Shown here: in pieces, positions 1,265 through 45,093 of the stretch
Layout: each line of letters opens with the position of its first letter
How positions within the stretch are numbered: the first letter of the stretch is position 1
Made by a program: the position numbers and the translations under genes
The notes under the pieces: model-generated
Told to the model about the DNA's origin: nothing
Database searches by the model: none
Seen by the model: only the letters and a program-made list of their open reading frames with translations
Origin: an uncultured Pelagibacteraceae bacterium
Lineage (GTDB): Bacteria; Pseudomonadota; Alphaproteobacteria; Pelagibacterales; AG-422-B15
Assembly: GCA_902518955.1 (NCBI GenBank)
Contig: CABYIR010000009.1
Span: 1 to 48,275, forward strand
DNA length: 48,275 nt
Direction: 5' to 3'

Positions 1265-2283
1265 TAATAAAAGAATTTCAACTTGATAAAGAAATTAATA
1301 AAGGATCTTTACCTAAGTTTTTACTAATTTATGGTCCCAATGAAGGATTAATTAGAGATAATTTATTGAAAATCACTAAAACATTCGCTCAAAAAATAGA
1401 GACAGATGAAATTACCATAAATGGAAAAGCAGTTGATGAAAATCAAAATATTGTTGATGAAGAGATAAGGTCATTGTCAATGTTTAGCGAACAAAAAATA
1501 ATACATTTGGAAAACATAAAAGATAAGCACTTACAATTTTTTGAAAATATAGATATCAAAAGCAATATAGTTTTGCTCATTATCAAATCTGAAAATTTAA
1601 ATAAAAATTCAAAATTGAGAAACTTCTTTGAAAAACATAAAAAATATGCAGCAATTCCATGCTATGAGGATGATATAAGATCAACCATGAACTTGATAAG
1701 TCAGTTTCAGTCAGATCATAAAATTAAGTTTAATAGTGATATTAAAAATTATTTAATCCAAAACTTAAGTACTGACAGGTTCATAAGTAAAAATGAACTA
1801 GAGAAAATACTTTTAGTCATCGATCACCAAAAAGATAAACAAATTAAACTAAAAGATATTCAAGCAGTACTAAATGATAGTTCTTCAAACTCACTAAATA
1901 TTATTAACGAATACGTAATGTATGGAAAAGTCAATCAAGTATCAAAAAATTTATATAGGATCTTTGATGAGGGTACTAATGCAGTAGCTATTATCAGATC
2001 CTTACTAAATTATCTAGTGCGTGTTCATAAAACTCAAATTGAAATAAAAAGAACTGGTAACTTTGATGAAGCAATAAAACAACTCAGACCACCTGTATTT
2101 TGGAAAGACAAAGATAATTTTAAAAACCATTGTTCTAAATGGCCAACCAAAGAAATTTTATATTATATTGAAAGATTGTTAGAAGCAGAATATAAGTGCA
2201 AAATACAAAGCTCACTCAATAACGAAATTTGTGAAAAGTATATTCTATCAGTAGCAAAAAAGGGTGAAGTTTATTTTAATTAA
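1261..2283 (+). CDS. holA: DNA polymerase III delta subunit HolA
   Basis: HolA is the clamp-loader wrench that opens the beta sliding clamp during replication. The 340-residue length is typical. The N-terminal AAA-like domain shows LLIYGPNEGLIRD at about residues 21-33; this is the degenerate P-loop normal for delta, which does not hydrolyse ATP. The middle contains the acidic helix-rich region, and the C-terminal collar domain has the pattern PPVFWKDK near residue 278, common in alphaproteobacterial HolA. It overlaps lptE by 4 bases. It converges on parB, whose stop codon shares the TTAA at 2280-2283. Confidence is high because sequence and neighbourhood agree. Confidence 0.92.
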   Translation: MIIKEFQLDKEINKGSLPKFLLIYGPNEGLIRDNLLKITKTFAQKIETDEITINGKAVDENQNIVDEEIRSLSMFSEQKIIHLENIKDKHLQFFENIDIKSNIVLLIIKSENLNKNSKLRNFFEKHKKYAAIPCYEDDIRSTMNLISQFQSDHKIKFNSDIKNYLIQNLSTDRFISKNELEKILLVIDHQKDKQIKLKDIQAVLNDSSSNSLNIINEYVMYGKVNQVSKNLYRIFDEGTNAVAIIRSLLNYLVRVHKTQIEIKRTGNFDEAIKQLRPPVFWKDKDNFKNHCSKWPTKEILYYIERLLEAEYKCKIQSSLNNEICEKYILSVAKKGEVYFN

Positions 2284-3137
2284 AATTTTAACTTGCTAGT
2301 AACTAACTCTAGTTGATCTAGGGATCTATACTTTATCTTGATAGAACCACCTCTTTTATGAGTATGGTTAATTGATACATCTAATCCCAGTTTCTCTGAT
2401 AATTTCTTTTCAAGATCTAGCGTATCTGGATCCTTGAGTTTTAGTTTCTTAACAATAGGTTTTTTGCTTTTAACAAGGGCCTCAGTTTGTCTCACAGAGA
2501 GGTTTTCATTAATAATTTTTTCTGCCAATTGTTCAGGAAAAGCACTGTTCATTATAGCTCTTGCATGCCCAGATGATATTGATCCCTGTGATATCATATC
2601 TTGAATAGAATTAGGGAGTGATAATAAACGAATAATATTTGCGACATGACTTCGACTCTTTCCTACAATTTCAGAAAGTGCTTCTTGTGTATGACCATAG
2701 TTGTCCATAAGTTTTTTATAACCAGCTGCCTCTTCGATTGGTGACAAATCTTCTCGTTGAACATTTTCAATAATAGCAATCTCTAATGATTCAACGTCAT
2801 CTAAGTTTCTTATTACCGCTGATATTTCATGGAGCTGTGCAACTTGAGCTGCTCTCCATCTTCTTTCACCAGCTATAATTTCATAATCACCTGGATTTGA
2901 TTTAGATGGTCTTACAAGAATAGGTTGAACTAAACCCTTTGATTTAATTGAATCTGCAAGTTCATTGATACTAGCCTTTTCAAAAATTCTTCTTGGTTGT
3001 ATCGGACTTGGTCTCAGTTTTGAAATAGGTATTTTAGTCTCTGTGGAACTTAAATTTTCTGTTTTTTCATCACTCACCTCACCCATCAAAGATGAAAGGC
3101 CTCTTCCCAATCCTTTTTTATTTATTTTAAGATCCAT
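2280..3137 (-). CDS. parB: Chromosome partitioning protein ParB
   Basis: ParB is the CTP-dependent DNA clamp that loads at parS and spreads around the origin for chromosome segregation. In 285 residues the family elements appear in order. KKGLGRGLSSLMGE (7-20) is the N-terminal segment that contacts ParA. QPRR (47-50) and the CTP-binding motif GERRWRA (90-96) follow. ENVQREDL (124-131) precedes a helix-turn-helix at about 149-173, and the C-terminal dimerisation region ends the protein. It lies directly downstream of parA (3137 shared), which itself follows rsmG. A perfect parS is 1.4 kb upstream inside rsmG. A full-length chromosomal ParB is the clear reading. Confidence 0.97.
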   Translation of the reverse strand: MDLKINKKGLGRGLSSLMGEVSDEKTENLSSTETKIPISKLRPSPIQPRRIFEKASINELADSIKSKGLVQPILVRPSKSNPGDYEIIAGERRWRAAQVAQLHEISAVIRNLDDVESLEIAIIENVQREDLSPIEEAAGYKKLMDNYGHTQEALSEIVGKSRSHVANIIRLLSLPNSIQDMISQGSISSGHARAIMNSAFPEQLAEKIINENLSVRQTEALVKSKKPIVKKLKLKDPDTLDLEKKLSEKLGLDVSINHTHKRGGSIKIKYRSLDQLELVTSKLKF

Positions 3138-3925
3138 TATGCAGCTTCCAAATTTTTAGTTTTTTTTAAAATTTCATTTGCAAGTTGAATGTATGCCTGG
3201 CTTCCTTTTGAACGATGATCATAAATTAATGCTGGTAATCCAAATGATGGTGCTTCAGACATGCGAACATTTCTTGGGATTACTGTTTCAAATACTTTTT
3301 CTTTTAAATGAGATCGAACGTCTTGTGCAACCTGCAAAGATAATCGATTTCTTTGATCATACATAGTTAGAACAATTCCATCTATACTCAGATTTTGATT
3401 TAAATTTTTTCTTACTCTATCAATTGTCTTAATTAATTGAGATAAACCCTCTAATGCAAAAAATTCACATTGTAATGGAACAAGAACTGAGTCTGCTGCA
3501 GTCATTGCCATAACTGTCAATAAACTAAGTGCGGGAGGACAATCAATAAAAATAAAATCAAATTGATTTTTAAAATCATCAGATAATAAATTTTTTAAAA
3601 CATATGCTCTATTCGTTTGGTCTAAGAGTTCTGGTTCAATTCCAGACAACTCAACAGTAGATGGAATGATAAATAAATTTTTAATAGAAGTTGTATGACT
3701 TGCACTCTCAATGTTTATTGATCCAGAAAGAACTTCGTAGATAGAATTACTTCGATTAGAATAATCAATTCCTAGTCCGGTGCTTGCATTACCCTGTGGA
3801 TCTAAATCAATAATTAAAACTTTTTGATCGCATGCAGCCAATGCAGTTGCAAGATTGATGGCTGTTGTTGTTTTACCAACCCCACCTTTTTGATTTGAAA
3901 TCGCAATAATTTTTTGATTATTCAT
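3137..3925 (-). CDS. parA: Chromosome partitioning ATPase ParA
   Basis: ParA is the deviant Walker-A ATPase that forms the nucleoid gradient used to move ParB-parS complexes. The 262-residue protein has the signature KGGVGKTT at 13-20, including the signature lysine Lys13, then IIDLDPQGNAST near 39-50 (switch I/Walker A') and FIFIDCPPALSLL near 125-137 (Walker B). It lacks the N-terminal helix-turn-helix of plasmid type Ia ParA, as expected for a chromosomal (Soj-like) copy. It is packed between rsmG and parB with single-base overlaps, indicating one operon. Confidence 0.97.
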   Translation of the reverse strand: MNNQKIIAISNQKGGVGKTTTAINLATALAACDQKVLIIDLDPQGNASTGLGIDYSNRSNSIYEVLSGSINIESASHTTSIKNLFIIPSTVELSGIEPELLDQTNRAYVLKNLLSDDFKNQFDFIFIDCPPALSLLTVMAMTAADSVLVPLQCEFFALEGLSQLIKTIDRVRKNLNQNLSIDGIVLTMYDQRNRLSLQVAQDVRSHLKEKVFETVIPRNVRMSEAPSFGLPALIYDHRSKGSQAYIQLANEILKKTKNLEAA

Positions 3926-4557
3926 TAAGTTATTGATTTAATTATATTTTTTGCTTCAAAAATATTTGATCCTTTTTCTAAATTGTTTTCATGAATATTA
4001 TAGTCAAATTTCCAATATTTAGTAGTTGAATTTATCTCATCAACTACATGTACACCTTTATGAAGCAGGTAAACAGTACTATTTTTTTTAAGATGATAAC
4101 TCATTGAAAATATTTCATTTATTTTTGCTGTGGCCCTACTAATTATATAGTCAAATGAATGATTTTTTATATTCTCAACGCGATCATTAATTATTTTTAC
4201 ATTCGAGATATCAAATCGATCACAGCAATCCTTTATAAAATTGGCTTTTTTGTTATTACTTTCACACAGAACAAATTCAAATAAATTTTTGTCAAGAACC
4301 ATACTTAAAGGCAAACCTGGTAAACCAGCACCGCTTCCAATATCTAATATTCTAATCTTTTTATCATTTTTTTCGAAAAATTTAATTAGTCTTAGAGAAT
4401 CATGAAAGTGTCTGATCCATATGTTTTCCTTGTCTTTCTTAGAAACTAGATTGAATTTAGCTCTAATTATAGAATCTCTATAATCCGAGAGCTTTTTGAT
4501 TGTTTCACGTGAAACATAAGGGTTTAAAGTCTGGAGTTGATCGGAAGAGTCAATCAT
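3925..4557 (-). CDS. rsmG: 16S rRNA (guanine-527-N7) methyltransferase RsmG
   Basis: RsmG methylates G527 of 16S rRNA using S-adenosylmethionine. The 210-residue protein shows the AdoMet-binding loop ILDIGSGAGLPG at about 70-81 and the family pattern RHFHDSL at 49-55. The later motif FDYIISRATAKINE, near 125-138, matches the conserved alphaproteobacterial [D]xxxSRAxA region. It sits between mnmG (9-base gap) and parA (one shared base), the classic gidA-gidB-parA order. Codons 14-19 (YVSRET) are encoded by the parS palindrome, so this segment serves both protein coding and ParB binding. Confidence 0.95.
   Translation of the reverse strand: MIDSSDQLQTLNPYVSRETIKKLSDYRDSIIRAKFNLVSKKDKENIWIRHFHDSLRLIKFFEKNDKKIRILDIGSGAGLPGLPLSMVLDKNLFEFVLCESNNKKANFIKDCCDRFDISNVKIINDRVENIKNHSFDYIISRATAKINEIFSMSYHLKKNSTVYLLHKGVHVVDEINSTTKYWKFDYNIHENNLEKGSNIFEAKNIIKSIT
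4501..4516. other. parS: parS centromere-like site for ParB
   Basis: The 16-base sequence TGTTTCACGTGAAACA is a perfect palindrome and equals the bacterial parS consensus known from Bacillus and Caulobacter. It lies in the 5' part of rsmG, 1.4 kb from parB and about 10.5 kb from the candidate oriC. This fits the usual origin-proximal placement. ParB encoded at 2280-3137 would load here and spread. No second perfect copy was seen in the window. Confidence 0.93.
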
Positions 4558-8410: not shown

Positions 8411-10411
8411 ATGGCTAATAATTTACTATCTAAGGAAACAAGTCCCTACCTCTTGCAACATAAAGACAATCCAGTCAATTGGTATGGCTGGGGTGAAGAT
8501 GCATTCGTCCAAGCTGAAAAAGAAAATAAACCAATACTTCTATCTATTGGATATGCTTCCTGTCACTGGTGTCATGTCATGGCACATGAAAGCTTTGAAG
8601 ATGATGAAACAGCAAAAATTATGAATGACAAATTTATCAATATTAAACTTGATCGAGAGGAACGACCAGACATTGATAGTATATATCAAACTGCACTCGC
8701 ACTACTTGGTCAACAAGGGGGTTGGCCCTTAACTATGTTCTTAGACTCATCAAAAAAACCTTTTTGGGGAGGAACATATTTTCCAAAAGCCCCTCGTCAA
8801 GGCATACCAACGTTTCAAAGTATATTAAATATGGTCTCTGAATCATTTAATAAAAATAAAAATGATATCGAACAAAACAAAACTATTATTTTCAATGCTA
8901 TGCAAAAATTACAAGGTGAGAAATATGAAAATGAATTAGATGAAACATTTTATAAAAAAATATCTGAATTAATATTATCAAATATGGATACAATCCACGG
9001 TGGACTTAAAGGAGCCCCAAAATTTCCTCAATTTTTTTTGTATGAATACTTATTAAATCAATACAAAAAAAATTCAGATAATTTATTTTATGATTTATCT
9101 TTAAAATCGATTGATCAAATATGTAGTGGAGGTATCTACGATCATATTGGTGGAGGGATATCTCGATATTCAGTTGATCAGTATTGGCTAGTGCCTCATT
9201 TTGAAAAGATGCTTTATGATAATGCTCAACTCATCGGAATATTGAATAATTTTTGGCAATTAACAAAAAAAGAAGCATACAAAAATAAAATTTATGAAAC
9301 TGTGGATTGGCTAAAAAAAGATATGTTAGATCCTTCTTCGGCATTTTATTCATCATATGATGCTGATTCTGAAGGAGTTGAAGGTAAATATTATGTATGG
9401 TCATATCAAGAGCTGCGGAAGATATTAGGTAATAACTTTTTATTTTTTACTAAAATATTTAATATTTATGAGAACGGTAATTGGGAAGGAAGTAATGTAC
9501 TTAGTTGTAATGAAAACTTACATATTGAAACTGATGACTACAGTAAATTAAGACAATTAATCAATACTTTATATGATGAAAGAATCAAAAGACCTAAACC
9601 AACATGTGATAATAAAATTTTATGCGATTGGAATGGGCTTGCAATCGATAGTATAGCAAAATCATCAGCAATTTTTAGAGATGAAAAATTATTAAACTTA
9701 GCTCAAGAAGCGTTTAATTTCATCAAAACATCAATGTATGATGGAAAAACACTTTACCACTCGCATTGCAATTCAATAAATAAACATGAGGGTATGCTTG
9801 AAGATTATGCCTATCTTATCAAAGCAGGTATAACTATTTTTGAGATCACAACGGATGAACAGTACCTAAAGTTCTCATTAGAACTAACTGAGACACTAAT
9901 TGAAAATTTTGGCGATGAAGAAGGTATGTTTTTTATAACCTCAAAAATGAAAGACGATGTTATTATTAGAAATAAACAAATAGTAGACAATGTCATGCCG
10001 AATGCTAATGCGGTAATGATAGAGAACTTAACCAAGTTAGATTTTATTACTGGTGAGCATAAATATAATCAATTAAATACAAAAATTATCCAAGATTACT
10101 CATCAAGAATAAATAAAGAATACTTTGGAATATGTTCTTTTTTAAATAGTTTAGATTTTTTTAATAATTATCAATCAATAATTATTACTGGTATAAATAA
10201 AGATGATAATAAAAAAATTTATGATCAACTAATTAAAATATACTTACCAAATACCATAATCCTAATGATTAACGAAAAAACAAATATAATTTCTAAAAAT
10301 AGCTTTTTGAACCAGATCGAAATAAAGAGCCAGTCATCTATCTATTTATGCAAGAATAATACATGTTCATTACCTAGCAATAATGTAGAAGAAATTTTAA
10401 AAATGATATGA
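8411..10411 (+). CDS. Thioredoxin domain-containing protein, DUF255/YyaL family
   Basis: The 666-residue protein matches the widespread YyaL/SPATA20 family. It begins with a thioredoxin-like domain ([14 protein letters not shown] at 11-24; CHWCHVM at 51-57, with a CxxC pair at 51/54) and continues with an (alpha/alpha)6 sugar-hydrolase-like barrel, including the family patterns APKFPQF and [12 protein letters not shown]. The cellular role is not established, and neither redox nor sugar-processing activity can be asserted. The last residues are less conserved and low in complexity. It overlaps apt by 4 bases (ATGA at 10408-10411), implying translational coupling. Confidence 0.9.
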
Positions 10412-13940: not shown

Positions 13941-14927
13941 TTATAGATTACCCCTGATTTTATTAATTAGTTGTTTTACGTTGTCTATTGGTGTTTTTGG
14001 CAAAACGCCATGACCAAGGTTAAAAATATGTGGCTTATTTTTAAAGGCAAGTAAAATATTCTCAACTTCTTTGTTAAGATTATCCCCGCCGATTAAAAGA
14101 GTCTCAGGATTCAGGTTTCCTTGAAAGCACAGGTTTTGATTAAGTGATTCTAGTTTATGAAGATCAAATTGAGTATCTAATGATATACAATCAAGGTGTT
14201 TAATGTTTGAATAGCGTATATAATTCATTAGTGATGCCTCTCTGGGAAATCCTATATTATATGATCCAAGTTCTTTTAATGCAGAAAATATTTTATTTGC
14301 AGGATCCAGACACCAGGTTTCAAACTGCTCATCATTTAACAATCCAGACCAAGACTCAAATAATTGAAAAATATCAGCGCCCGATTTGATTTGATTGGCT
14401 GCATGTTCAATAATTAAATCTGTAAATATCGGAACAAGATTATTTATTTCTTTTTCTTTTTGTGTAATTAGTTTTTTATCAAAACCTTTTCTTGTTTCAC
14501 GATCAAACAAACAATAATAAATAGTAGACCATACCCCTCCCGAAAAACCGATAAGAGGTTGGTTACTTGTATCTTTAATTTTTTTTATTGCGTTATATAT
14601 AGGTTCTGCTTTCTTTATATCTACTTTACTCGATTTATCAAATTCAACTAATGGTCCGCTATTTTCACCGAATGATATTTGGCTTCCCATTAAATAGGGT
14701 ATAACTAAAATATCTGAGAATAGAATTGATGCATCTAAACTATATCGTTGTACAGGTTGCAAAGTAACCTCAACGATTGTTTGAGTATCTAGAAACATAC
14801 TTAATAAACTCTTGTGCTTTTTTTTAATCTCCAAGTATTCAGGTAAGTGTCTTCCCGCCTGTCTCATAAGCCAAACAGGTGTTTTCGTTGTTTTGTCTCC
14901 TTTAAGGTTATCTAATAGAATACTCAT
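13941..14927 (-). CDS. hemE: Uroporphyrinogen III decarboxylase HemE
   Basis: HemE decarboxylates the four acetate side chains of uroporphyrinogen III to give coproporphyrinogen III. The 328-residue protein carries the first signature PVWLMRQAGR at 17-26, the catalytic aspartate in ILFSDIL (Asp72), and the end motifs CFQGNLNPETLL and FNLGHGVLP. The second signature region, normally GFxGAPxT, reads GFSGGVWST at 127-135, so the usual proline is absent. Otherwise the protein looks functional. It is the first gene of the hemE-hemH-hemG run and its 5' end faces the candidate origin, as at the Caulobacter origin. Confidence 0.95.
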   Translation of the reverse strand: MSILLDNLKGDKTTKTPVWLMRQAGRHLPEYLEIKKKHKSLLSMFLDTQTIVEVTLQPVQRYSLDASILFSDILVIPYLMGSQISFGENSGPLVEFDKSSKVDIKKAEPIYNAIKKIKDTSNQPLIGFSGGVWSTIYYCLFDRETRKGFDKKLITQKEKEINNLVPIFTDLIIEHAANQIKSGADIFQLFESWSGLLNDEQFETWCLDPANKIFSALKELGSYNIGFPREASLMNYIRYSNIKHLDCISLDTQFDLHKLESLNQNLCFQGNLNPETLLIGGDNLNKEVENILLAFKNKPHIFNLGHGVLPKTPIDNVKQLINKIRGNL

Positions 14928-14995
14928 AAGTATATATATAAGGTAGTAGTTGTAGTTGCCCCTGTGTGTTTGTGGTTAACTTGTCTTTTTATTTT

Positions 14996-15004
14996 TTATC
15001 CACA
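14996..15004 (+). other. DnaA box, exact consensus
   Basis: TTATCCACA matches the high-affinity DnaA-box consensus at all nine positions. It is the strongest of the DnaA-like sites clustered between 14971 and 15086. Confidence 0.8.
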
Positions 15005-15053
15005 TTAAAAAACCCTAAAAAACTAATAAAAACAAGATAAAAACAAAATATTC

Positions 15054-15092
15054 ACACCTGTTGATAATAATTTTAGGAAAATCCACAGGTGT
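15054..15092. repeat. 8-base perfect inverted repeat inside candidate oriC
   Basis: ACACCTGT (15054-15061) and ACAGGTGT (15085-15092) are perfect reverse complements separated by 23 bases. The left arm overlaps two DnaA-like boxes. The arms could form a protein-binding operator or a small hairpin; their role is unknown. Confidence 0.6.
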
Positions 15093-15206
15093 ATAACCAC
15101 CACCTAAACACCTAATAAAAATAGATTATTTATATAAAAAACAAGACAATTAACATTTATAAAGAAATGTAAACAACATATATAAAGATACTAATATTTT
15201 ATTAAC

Positions 15207-15803
15207 ATGAATATACACCTTGCATCAAAAAGTGAAACCAGAGGAAAACTATTAAAAAACGCAAAAATTAGTTTTTCTAGAATAGATCATGGTGTTGATG
15301 AGGACGAGGTTAAAATTTCCCTTCAAAACCAACCACCAATAGAAATTGCTATTAAACTATCAGAACTCAAAGCAACACAACCAAAACCAGAAAACAAAGA
15401 AGACATAGTTATTGGCTCAGACCAGGTTTTAGATTTAGAAGGCAAGCTATTTAATAAAGCTAGGGACTTAGATGAAGCAAAATTACAACTTATAGAACTT
15501 AGTGGCAAAAAACACACCCTGATAACATCGACGGTAATAGCACAAAATAATAATATTATTTGGAGACATCTTGATAAATCTACACTTGTGATGAGATCTT
15601 TAACTACAAAAGAAATAGACAACTATCTGAACGAAGTTGATAAATCTATTTTAAACCTAGTGGGTGTTTACGCAATTGAACAAGAAGGAATAAAATTATT
15701 CGAAAAGATAGACGGTGATTTTTTTTCAATACAAGGACTATCTGTCACCCCATTAATAAATTTTCTAAGACAACATAATTTGATTTTAAATAATGAGAAA
15801 TAA
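15207..15803 (+). CDS. maf: Maf-family nucleoside triphosphate pyrophosphatase
   Basis: Maf proteins hydrolyse non-canonical or modified nucleoside triphosphates. The 198-residue protein shows the N-terminal LASKSETRGKLL at 5-16 (LASxSxxR pattern), the catalytic aspartate segment VIGSDQVLDL near 68-77, and a C-terminal GVYAIEQEG region near 151-159. In alphaproteobacteria two Maf genes are common; this one matches the copy next to aroE and coaE. It is the first plus-strand gene right of the candidate origin and overlaps aroE by 11 bases, so it leads an operon of maf-aroE-coaE-dnaQ. Confidence 0.93.
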   Translation: MNIHLASKSETRGKLLKNAKISFSRIDHGVDEDEVKISLQNQPPIEIAIKLSELKATQPKPENKEDIVIGSDQVLDLEGKLFNKARDLDEAKLQLIELSGKKHTLITSTVIAQNNNIIWRHLDKSTLVMRSLTTKEIDNYLNEVDKSILNLVGVYAIEQEGIKLFEKIDGDFFSIQGLSVTPLINFLRQHNLILNNEK

Positions 15804-21796: not shown

Positions 21797-21871
21797 AGCC
21801 TTATCACAGTAATTAAATATATTTTATATAGCAAATTCAGTTATTTATTGTTAGAAATCACGTGTTTAATT

Positions 21872-43546: not shown

Positions 43547-45093
43547 ATGAAAATAATTAGGTCCTCTTTTACTTACTCAGCTTTTACTATGATTAGTAGA
43601 GTTGCGGGTTTCGTCAGGGATATAGTTTTTGCTAACTATCTTGGCTCTGGGGTCATAGCAGATGTATTTTATGTAGCTTTTAGATTTCCTAATACATTTA
43701 GAAGAATTTTTTCAGAAGGAGCATTTAACTCAGCTTTTGTTCCAATATATTCAAAACTAATCAGTGAAGATAGGAATAAAGAAGCAAGTGAGTTTGCTGG
43801 TAACTCACTATTAATTTTACTCTCATCAACAATTTTATTAGTTGGAATAATTGAAATTTTTATGCCATCAATTTTAAAAATATTAGCACCAGGTTTTTAT
43901 CAAGATCAAAATAAATTTGAAATGTTAATTACGTCAGCTAGAATTGTATTTCCATTTTTAATATTAGTTAGCATTGTTTCAATCCTATCTTCAATTCTAA
44001 ATTCGCATGGTAAATTCGCATTATCAGCTGGTTTACCAGTGATATTAAATGTGATCTTATCTATTTCTGTCTTATTTGCAGCTTTTCACGATAATGATTA
44101 TATTTTTTTGGATGTCTTGGGCAGTTATCATCTCAGGCATAATCCAAATATTTTTTTTAATTTTTGCTGTAAGAAAAAATAAAATTATCATCCAATTTTC
44201 TAAAAAATATCTGAGTGATCCCCTTATTAGATTTTATAAACTTTTTTTACCAAGTTTTTTATCTTCGGGTATTTTACAAATAAATATATTAATAGGAACT
44301 ATTATTGCTTCGTATGAAACAGGTGCAGTTTCTTATCTTTATTATGCAGATCGCATCTATCAGCTTCCACTTGCTCTCATTGGTATTGCAATAGGTATTG
44401 TTTTACTTCCAAGTATTTCAAAAAAAAGTAAAAGAAGATAAAAAACAAGTATTAATAAAACAATTGAAAAAACTATAGTTTACTCAATGCTGCTAGCTAT
44501 TCCTGCTTCAGTTGCATTATATGTATTGCCAGAAATAATTATCTCTTTTTTATTTGAAAGAGGTGCATTTGATACTATTTCTACTTATAACTCCTCAATG
44601 GCACTGAAAGTTTTTTCTTTGGGCCTGATAGCTTTTATTTTAGTGAAAATCCTGACGCCAATTTTTTTTGCAAATGAAAACTCTAAACTTCCATTAAATT
44701 TTTCAATAATTACTGTAATTTTAAATACATTTTTAAGTATCTTTTTATTCCTTGAGTTCGGTTTTTTGGGTATTGCAGCTGCAACTGTTATTTCAAGCTG
44801 GTTTAATGTCTTATTGCTATACATTTACTTATTTAAAAATAAATATTTTAGTCATTCAAATGAGTTTTTTTGCACCATTTTTTGTGATTTTAGCCGTCTC
44901 GTCTTTATTAGGACTTTATCTATTTGCTATCAAAAATGTTTACTTATCTCTTTCTTTTTCTAATTTTTTCTATGATGCCTTATTTTTTATAATAATTTTA
45001 ATTTCTGGATTAGTAGTATTTTTTACAATGATAAGTTTTTATAAACCGTTTAATTATGTTAATTTAAAAAAACAAATTTTAAGTGATGAGTGA
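43547..45093 (+). pseudogene. murJ: Lipid II flippase MurJ, four apparent frameshifts
   Basis: MurJ flips lipid II across the inner membrane for peptidoglycan synthesis. The start MKIIRSSFTYSAFTMISRVA and SGVIADVFYVAFRFPNTFRR are diagnostic, and the remaining sequence is continuous with MurJ only when read in several frames. Shifts map to T7 at 44103-44109 (one T extra), A8 at 44420-44427 (one A extra), A6 at 44467-44472 (one A missing) and T7 at 44865-44871 (one T extra; the T6 at 44878-44883 is an alternative). Correcting all four gives 514 residues with hydrophobic segments throughout, a normal MurJ. Its stop overlaps the trpS start by 8 bases. Confidence 0.85.

Follow-up and report, generated by a model that had tools for sequence, protein, structure and literature searches.

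A probable chromosomal replication origin between hemE and maf in a Pelagibacterales (SAR11-group) bacterium

The closest described systems are the origin of Caulobacter crescentus (Cori) and the hemE-COG1806 origin of Rickettsia. In these (PMC1914354; Brassinga et al. 2002, as cited in PMC2877005), hemE lies adjacent to the origin and points away from it, DnaA boxes are present, and parABS is close by. The hemE and COG1806 flanks served to define the Rickettsia origin (PMC1914354). At a finer scale, the published basal unwinding system (BUS) consists of a pair of DnaA boxes, a GC-rich spacer averaging 4 bp, and repeated triplets with the consensus 3'-GAT-5' (PMC8287927). In B. subtilis oriC it is formed by boxes #6/#7 and the DnaA-trios (PMC6669920, PMC8287927). 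In the literature search, no title or abstract described a SAR11 origin at the sequence level; databases of predicted origins of the DoriC type were outside its reach.

The window, the whole stretch of 48,275 nucleotides analysed here, is contig C9 of a 42-contig draft genome (79% complete) of a Pelagibacterales (SAR11-group) bacterium. Its gene order is parB-parA-rsmG-mnmG-mnmE ... rho-hemG-hemH-hemE-gap-maf-aroE-coaE-dnaQ-secB ... hslUV (Table 1). The chromosomal oriC is very likely the hemE-maf gap, and the locus joins the known hemE-type class of alphaproteobacterial origins. The original prediction had placed the probable origin in this gap, to about 280 bases, between genes pointing apart and with parABS about 10 kb away. 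The latter two features are present, and the first is supported by the box cluster, the constant gap length, the skew of relatives and the inversion axis. The evidence comprises sequence layout, conservation, the skew switch, the inversion axis and the proximity of parS. The call is well supported and largely expected; what is new is the clue to the opening site. Three findings are new as far as the literature search showed: a gap of fixed length, the probable loss of PpsR, and a triplet element at its hemE end.

Table 1. Features of the putative origin region and its surroundings (positions in the window).
Feature	Position	Strand	Evidence or remark
parB and parA	2280-3925	-	TIGR00180 and ParA-family matches
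parS, exact TGTTTCACGTGAAACA	4501-4516	none	inside rsmG; 10.4 kb from the hemE-maf gap
hemE, uroporphyrinogen decarboxylase, flanking gene	13941-14927	-	TIGR01464, E=3e-87, 10 bits under curated cut-off
Putative oriC, whole hemE-maf gap	14928-15206 (279 bp)	none	length constancy, box cluster, inversion axis, skew
TA run TATATATATAA, conserved AT element adjoining the triplets	14931-14941	none	TATATA core invariant in 30/30 aligned sequences
Five in-phase triplets TAG TAG TTG TAG TTG, putative degenerate DnaA-trios	14944-14958	+	triplet counts against shuffles
4-nt spacer CCCC, triplets to first DnaA box	14959-14962	none	4 nt in aligned relatives
Weak DnaA box nearest the trios, TGTGTGTTT on +	14963-14971	-	TGTG/TGTT kept in relatives; best window match of sister-family profile
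Second DnaA box of the pair, TTAACCACA, 1 mismatch	14971-14979	-	box scan; position conserved
Exact DnaA box TTATCCACA	14996-15004	+	box scan; CACA core invariant in family alignment
DnaA box ATATTCACA, 1 mismatch	15048-15056	+	most relatives have TTATNCAC there
DnaA box TTATCAACA, 1 mismatch	15059-15067	-	overlaps left arm of inverted repeat (15054-15065); kept in nearest relatives only
DnaA box TTATACACC, 1 mismatch	15088-15096	-	overlaps right arm of inverted repeat (15081-15092); GTG core invariant in relatives
AT-rich maf-side stretch	15105-15200	none	AT-rich here; relatives beyond the sister species less so
DnaA-box-like TTATTAACA, 1 mismatch	15199-15207	+	extends into maf start codon; weak
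maf-like nucleotide pyrophosphatase, flanking gene	15207-15803	+	NF002690/TIGR00172, under curated cut-offs

The hemE-maf gap is second in size among the gaps of the window, where the median gap is 2 bp. When open reading frames are taken as genes, the largest gap is 304 bp (44183-44486), which an overlapping frame at 44076-44441 may partly fill. At 8411-10411 the window encodes a protein of 666 aa; among known NCBIfam families it has just a weak match (NF045694, E=3e-5).

Compared with the Caulobacter and Rickettsia origins, the gap differs in its constant length of ~279 bp, in the absence of COG1806/PpsR from the whole family, and in the absence of a CtrA site. No site of the Caulobacter-subtype form TTAA-N7-TTAA is found within the gap, in agreement with a report that Pelagibacter lacks ctrA (PMC2877005). 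Regulation of the gap by CtrA is rejected, as there is no site for it.

The gap contains five DnaA boxes with at most one mismatch lying wholly within it, against 0.81 expected from dinucleotide shuffles (P ~0.001). With six boxes, 280-bp windows placed on the gap are the densest of all 48 kb, the next best region having three. Such a cluster above chance is a feature of bacterial oriC. The predicted exact box and several one-mismatch boxes are present (one exact and five with one mismatch), and so is the predicted inverted repeat (15054-15065/15081-15092); its arms of 12 nt, 92% complementary, are two facing DnaA-box-like sequences. In a 660-kb contig of another member of the family, G002, the gap with four boxes ties for the densest 280 bp, the other tie being at 88.9 kb. 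The gap of G002 is without an exact box, and the exact box is absent from the gap in most species of the genus g2. The single exact box was rejected as evidence, as exact boxes are not enriched in the own genome of the window (G000). That genome has 45 exact boxes TTATNCACA, below the reversed-pattern control (60).

In ~30 genomes from four genera of the window's family (f1), the gap is 277-281 bp long, with HemE and Maf identities outside the own genus mostly just ~50-60%. In the alignment of these gaps, TGTG/CACA cores recur in a set order, and the hemE end carries the invariant TATATA run followed by the phased triplets. Most boxes retain both their position and their CACA core in relatives, which bears out the expected conservation. 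A contig scan for close relatives found one (L032), whose HemE is 93% identical to that of the window. A plain promoter region serving the diverging hemE and maf, in which DnaA-like sequences arose by chance, would fit the orientation of the genes, the AT-rich DNA and a lone exact box, which is not rare in this genome. It would fit neither the improbability of the box cluster, nor the constant length and ordered CACA/TGTG cores across genera, nor the coincidence of the gap with the inversion axis described below, and is very improbable as the whole explanation. The gap, as the origin, may well also carry promoters.

In the sister family (f2, probably Pelagibacteraceae), the gap is likewise beside hemE, has a similar length (261-297 bp between hemE and PpsR), and contains the same block of triplets, spacer and box. 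It differs in that PpsR stands between the gap and maf, and its triplets are nearer TAN. PpsR (PF03618, COG1806) has no match in 53/53 genomes of f1, with E. coli, B. subtilis and Caulobacter positive as controls, and is found in 54/60 genomes of f2. The hemE adjacency of the hemE-type origin is found in both families, and its usual COG1806 neighbor on the other side is present in f2 and absent in f1. Because hemE and PpsR (COG1806) are the flanks used for the Rickettsia origins, the ancestral order was probably hemE-oriC-PpsR-maf, and the window's family probably lost PpsR.

The AT-rich stretch next to the boxes, proposed in the original prediction, exists on the maf side, with a G/C count of 14 in the last 96 bp and 12 at 15113. 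Its AT-richness is not conserved: G/C per 96 bp is 13-14 in the own genus versus 21-31 in all relatives but one. For that reason this stretch was rejected as the unwinding element; the conserved unwinding-type element is at the hemE end. The + strand at 14931-14979 there reads TATATATATAA GG TAG TAG TTG TAG TTG CCCC TGTGTGTTT overlapping TGTGGTTAA. Over 30 gaps of f1, 48 of 150 triplets are in-phase TAG, against 4.5 in shuffles, and over 30 gaps of f2, 104 of 150 are in-phase TAN, against 27.2; the sequences are related and the counts are not independent. A profile built from f2 only scores highest in the window at 14963(+) (16.9; the next best is 14.7 at 21839), and in G002 its second-best score falls at the gap. 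The profile derived from f1 is narrow, a single genus dominating it, and for that reason misses the site of f2; the reverse search succeeds.

The order and phase of the BUS are found in the window. Like B. subtilis oriC, it has a box pair, a 4-nt spacer, phased TAG triplets (3'-GAT-5', bound strand) and an AT run. Unlike in B. subtilis, the triplets are degenerate, with TTG in 2/5, and the proximal box is weak (TGTGTGTTT); in genus g2 the triplets are TTG/TTT/ATG, the middle A often being T. The strict BUS rule (PMC8287927) demands a box with <=2 mismatches, a spacer <=16 bp and >=3 consecutive NAN triplets, (.A.){3,}. The window has only two consecutive NAN triplets before TTG interrupts them, and most of g2 also falls outside the rule. 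It holds in the sister species and in other genera: 4/30 gaps in f1, including the sister species, agree with it, against 1.3 expected, and 14/30 in f2, against 2.7 expected. Since the strict NAN rule fails in the window and in most of g2, the hemE-side element is called probably BUS-like, short of a proven member of the BUS. Judged from this arrangement, opening is likely to start at the hemE-side element, and the TA run is probably the DNA melted first.

A cluster of DnaA boxes by itself does not prove initiation, and the gap might be a DnaA-titration or DnaA-regulatory site near the origin. The triplets, the spacer and the TA run are, however, features of unwinding sites and not of titration sites. 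There is no second cluster as dense in the window, and adjacency to hemE is kept in two well-separated families. A titration site is therefore highly unlikely, and the gap is better read as the origin.

Chromosome-scale tests were run on relatives; the own genome is a 42-contig draft. GC skew was computed for 20-kb stretches sampled from four complete chromosomes of f2, representing three genera. In 4/4 the negative skew on one side of the gap gives way to positive skew on the other (r=0.57-0.64, permutation P<=0.003), and the direction of the change indicates an origin rather than a terminus. The best switch centers lie from -39 to +48 kb from the gap, a resolution of ~50 kb. In the 660-kb contig of G002, the signal is weaker than in the complete f2 chromosomes: cumulative skew is lowest at 385 kb, and the gap (423.7 kb), 38 kb from this point, sits inside a broad trough (~345-460 kb). 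The expected skew minimum at the gap is seen as a switch within ~50 kb in four complete relatives, but the cumulative skew of the window itself is lowest near 21-22 kb rather than 15 kb. Skew here reflects gene orientation, not strand mutation. Strand skew at third codon positions, tried as a finer locator, is about zero and gives no signal.

Inversion symmetry is a sharper locator of the origin than skew. Bacterial genomes are known to favor inversions that are symmetric about the axis from origin to terminus (PMC5850607, PMC9584773). Between G002, G009, G157 and G003, 555/558 orthologue pairs (reciprocal best hits) lying up to 120 kb from the gap fit the symmetry: they are collinear if on the same side of it in both genomes, and inverted if on opposite sides. 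The median offsets of the axis from the gap are -2.9 to +5.8 kb. Relative to the gap, dnaA lies 63-65 kb towards hemE in some genera and 65-73 kb towards maf in the others, the pattern predicted for an axis at the gap.

The true origin could be elsewhere nearby, for example beside dnaA, with the gap being just a conserved intergenic region. The skew alone, which resolves the switch to ~50 kb, leaves room for this, with dnaA 63-73 kb off. The change of side of dnaA among genera at near-equal distance, the inversion axis <=6 kb from the gap, and the low number of boxes around dnaA in G002 (<=2 per 280 bp) make it very unlikely.

Five other genomes, drawn from both families, each have a single parS 7-19 kb from the gap, two of them with one mismatch; in the sister species the distance is ~10.7 kb. 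The chance expectation in the window search is ~0.2 sites even with three mismatches allowed. The skew switch and the symmetric-inversion axis (both in relatives) and the nearby parS are those of a hemE-type oriC.

The own draft (G000) yields no full-length dnaA; its sole match, weak and partial, is on contig C6. This is probably an assembly gap in a draft 79% complete. The sister species (G018) carries dnaA on its contig C45, and its DnaA has an intact Walker A motif and the box-binding GGRDHTTV motif.

From these features, DnaA binding, a melting site and a bidirectional start can be predicted. DnaA would bind the array of boxes at 14963-15096. The box pair (14963-14979) beside the triplets would serve as the loading platform, with those at 14996-15096 as anchors and regulators of the complex. 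From the pair, DnaA-ATP would spread along the + strand across the TAG/TTG triplets (14944-14958). The triplets and the TA run (14931-14941) would then melt, the helicase would be loaded, and two forks would leave in both directions. parS, 10 kb off, would then be segregated by ParAB.

Few marine bacteria are as abundant as those of the SAR11 group, for which origin-to-terminus read coverage serves to estimate growth. One growth estimator in PMC7852909 puts dnaA-bearing fragments at the origin. In these genomes, dnaA lies 63-73 kb from the gap, on either side; an origin of 279 bp beside hemE, with constant length, would allow coverage to be properly anchored in draft genomes. The triplets also vary naturally across the order-wide alignment, and these variants could be used to test the importance of individual DnaA-trio positions. 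It is possible, though rather doubtful, that the Pelagibacterales origin is a length-locked, CtrA-free and minimal one, in which the trio drifted to T-centered TTG/TTT in one family and the DnaA of the lineage reads a variant single-strand code.

For the terminus, 12 genomes were searched for dif using a consensus like that of E. coli, which performed no better than its reversed control and was dropped. A dif-site-like sequence, CGTATAATATATATTATGTAAA, is present in G002 (contig C2, 154719-154740) and could mark the terminus of the family.
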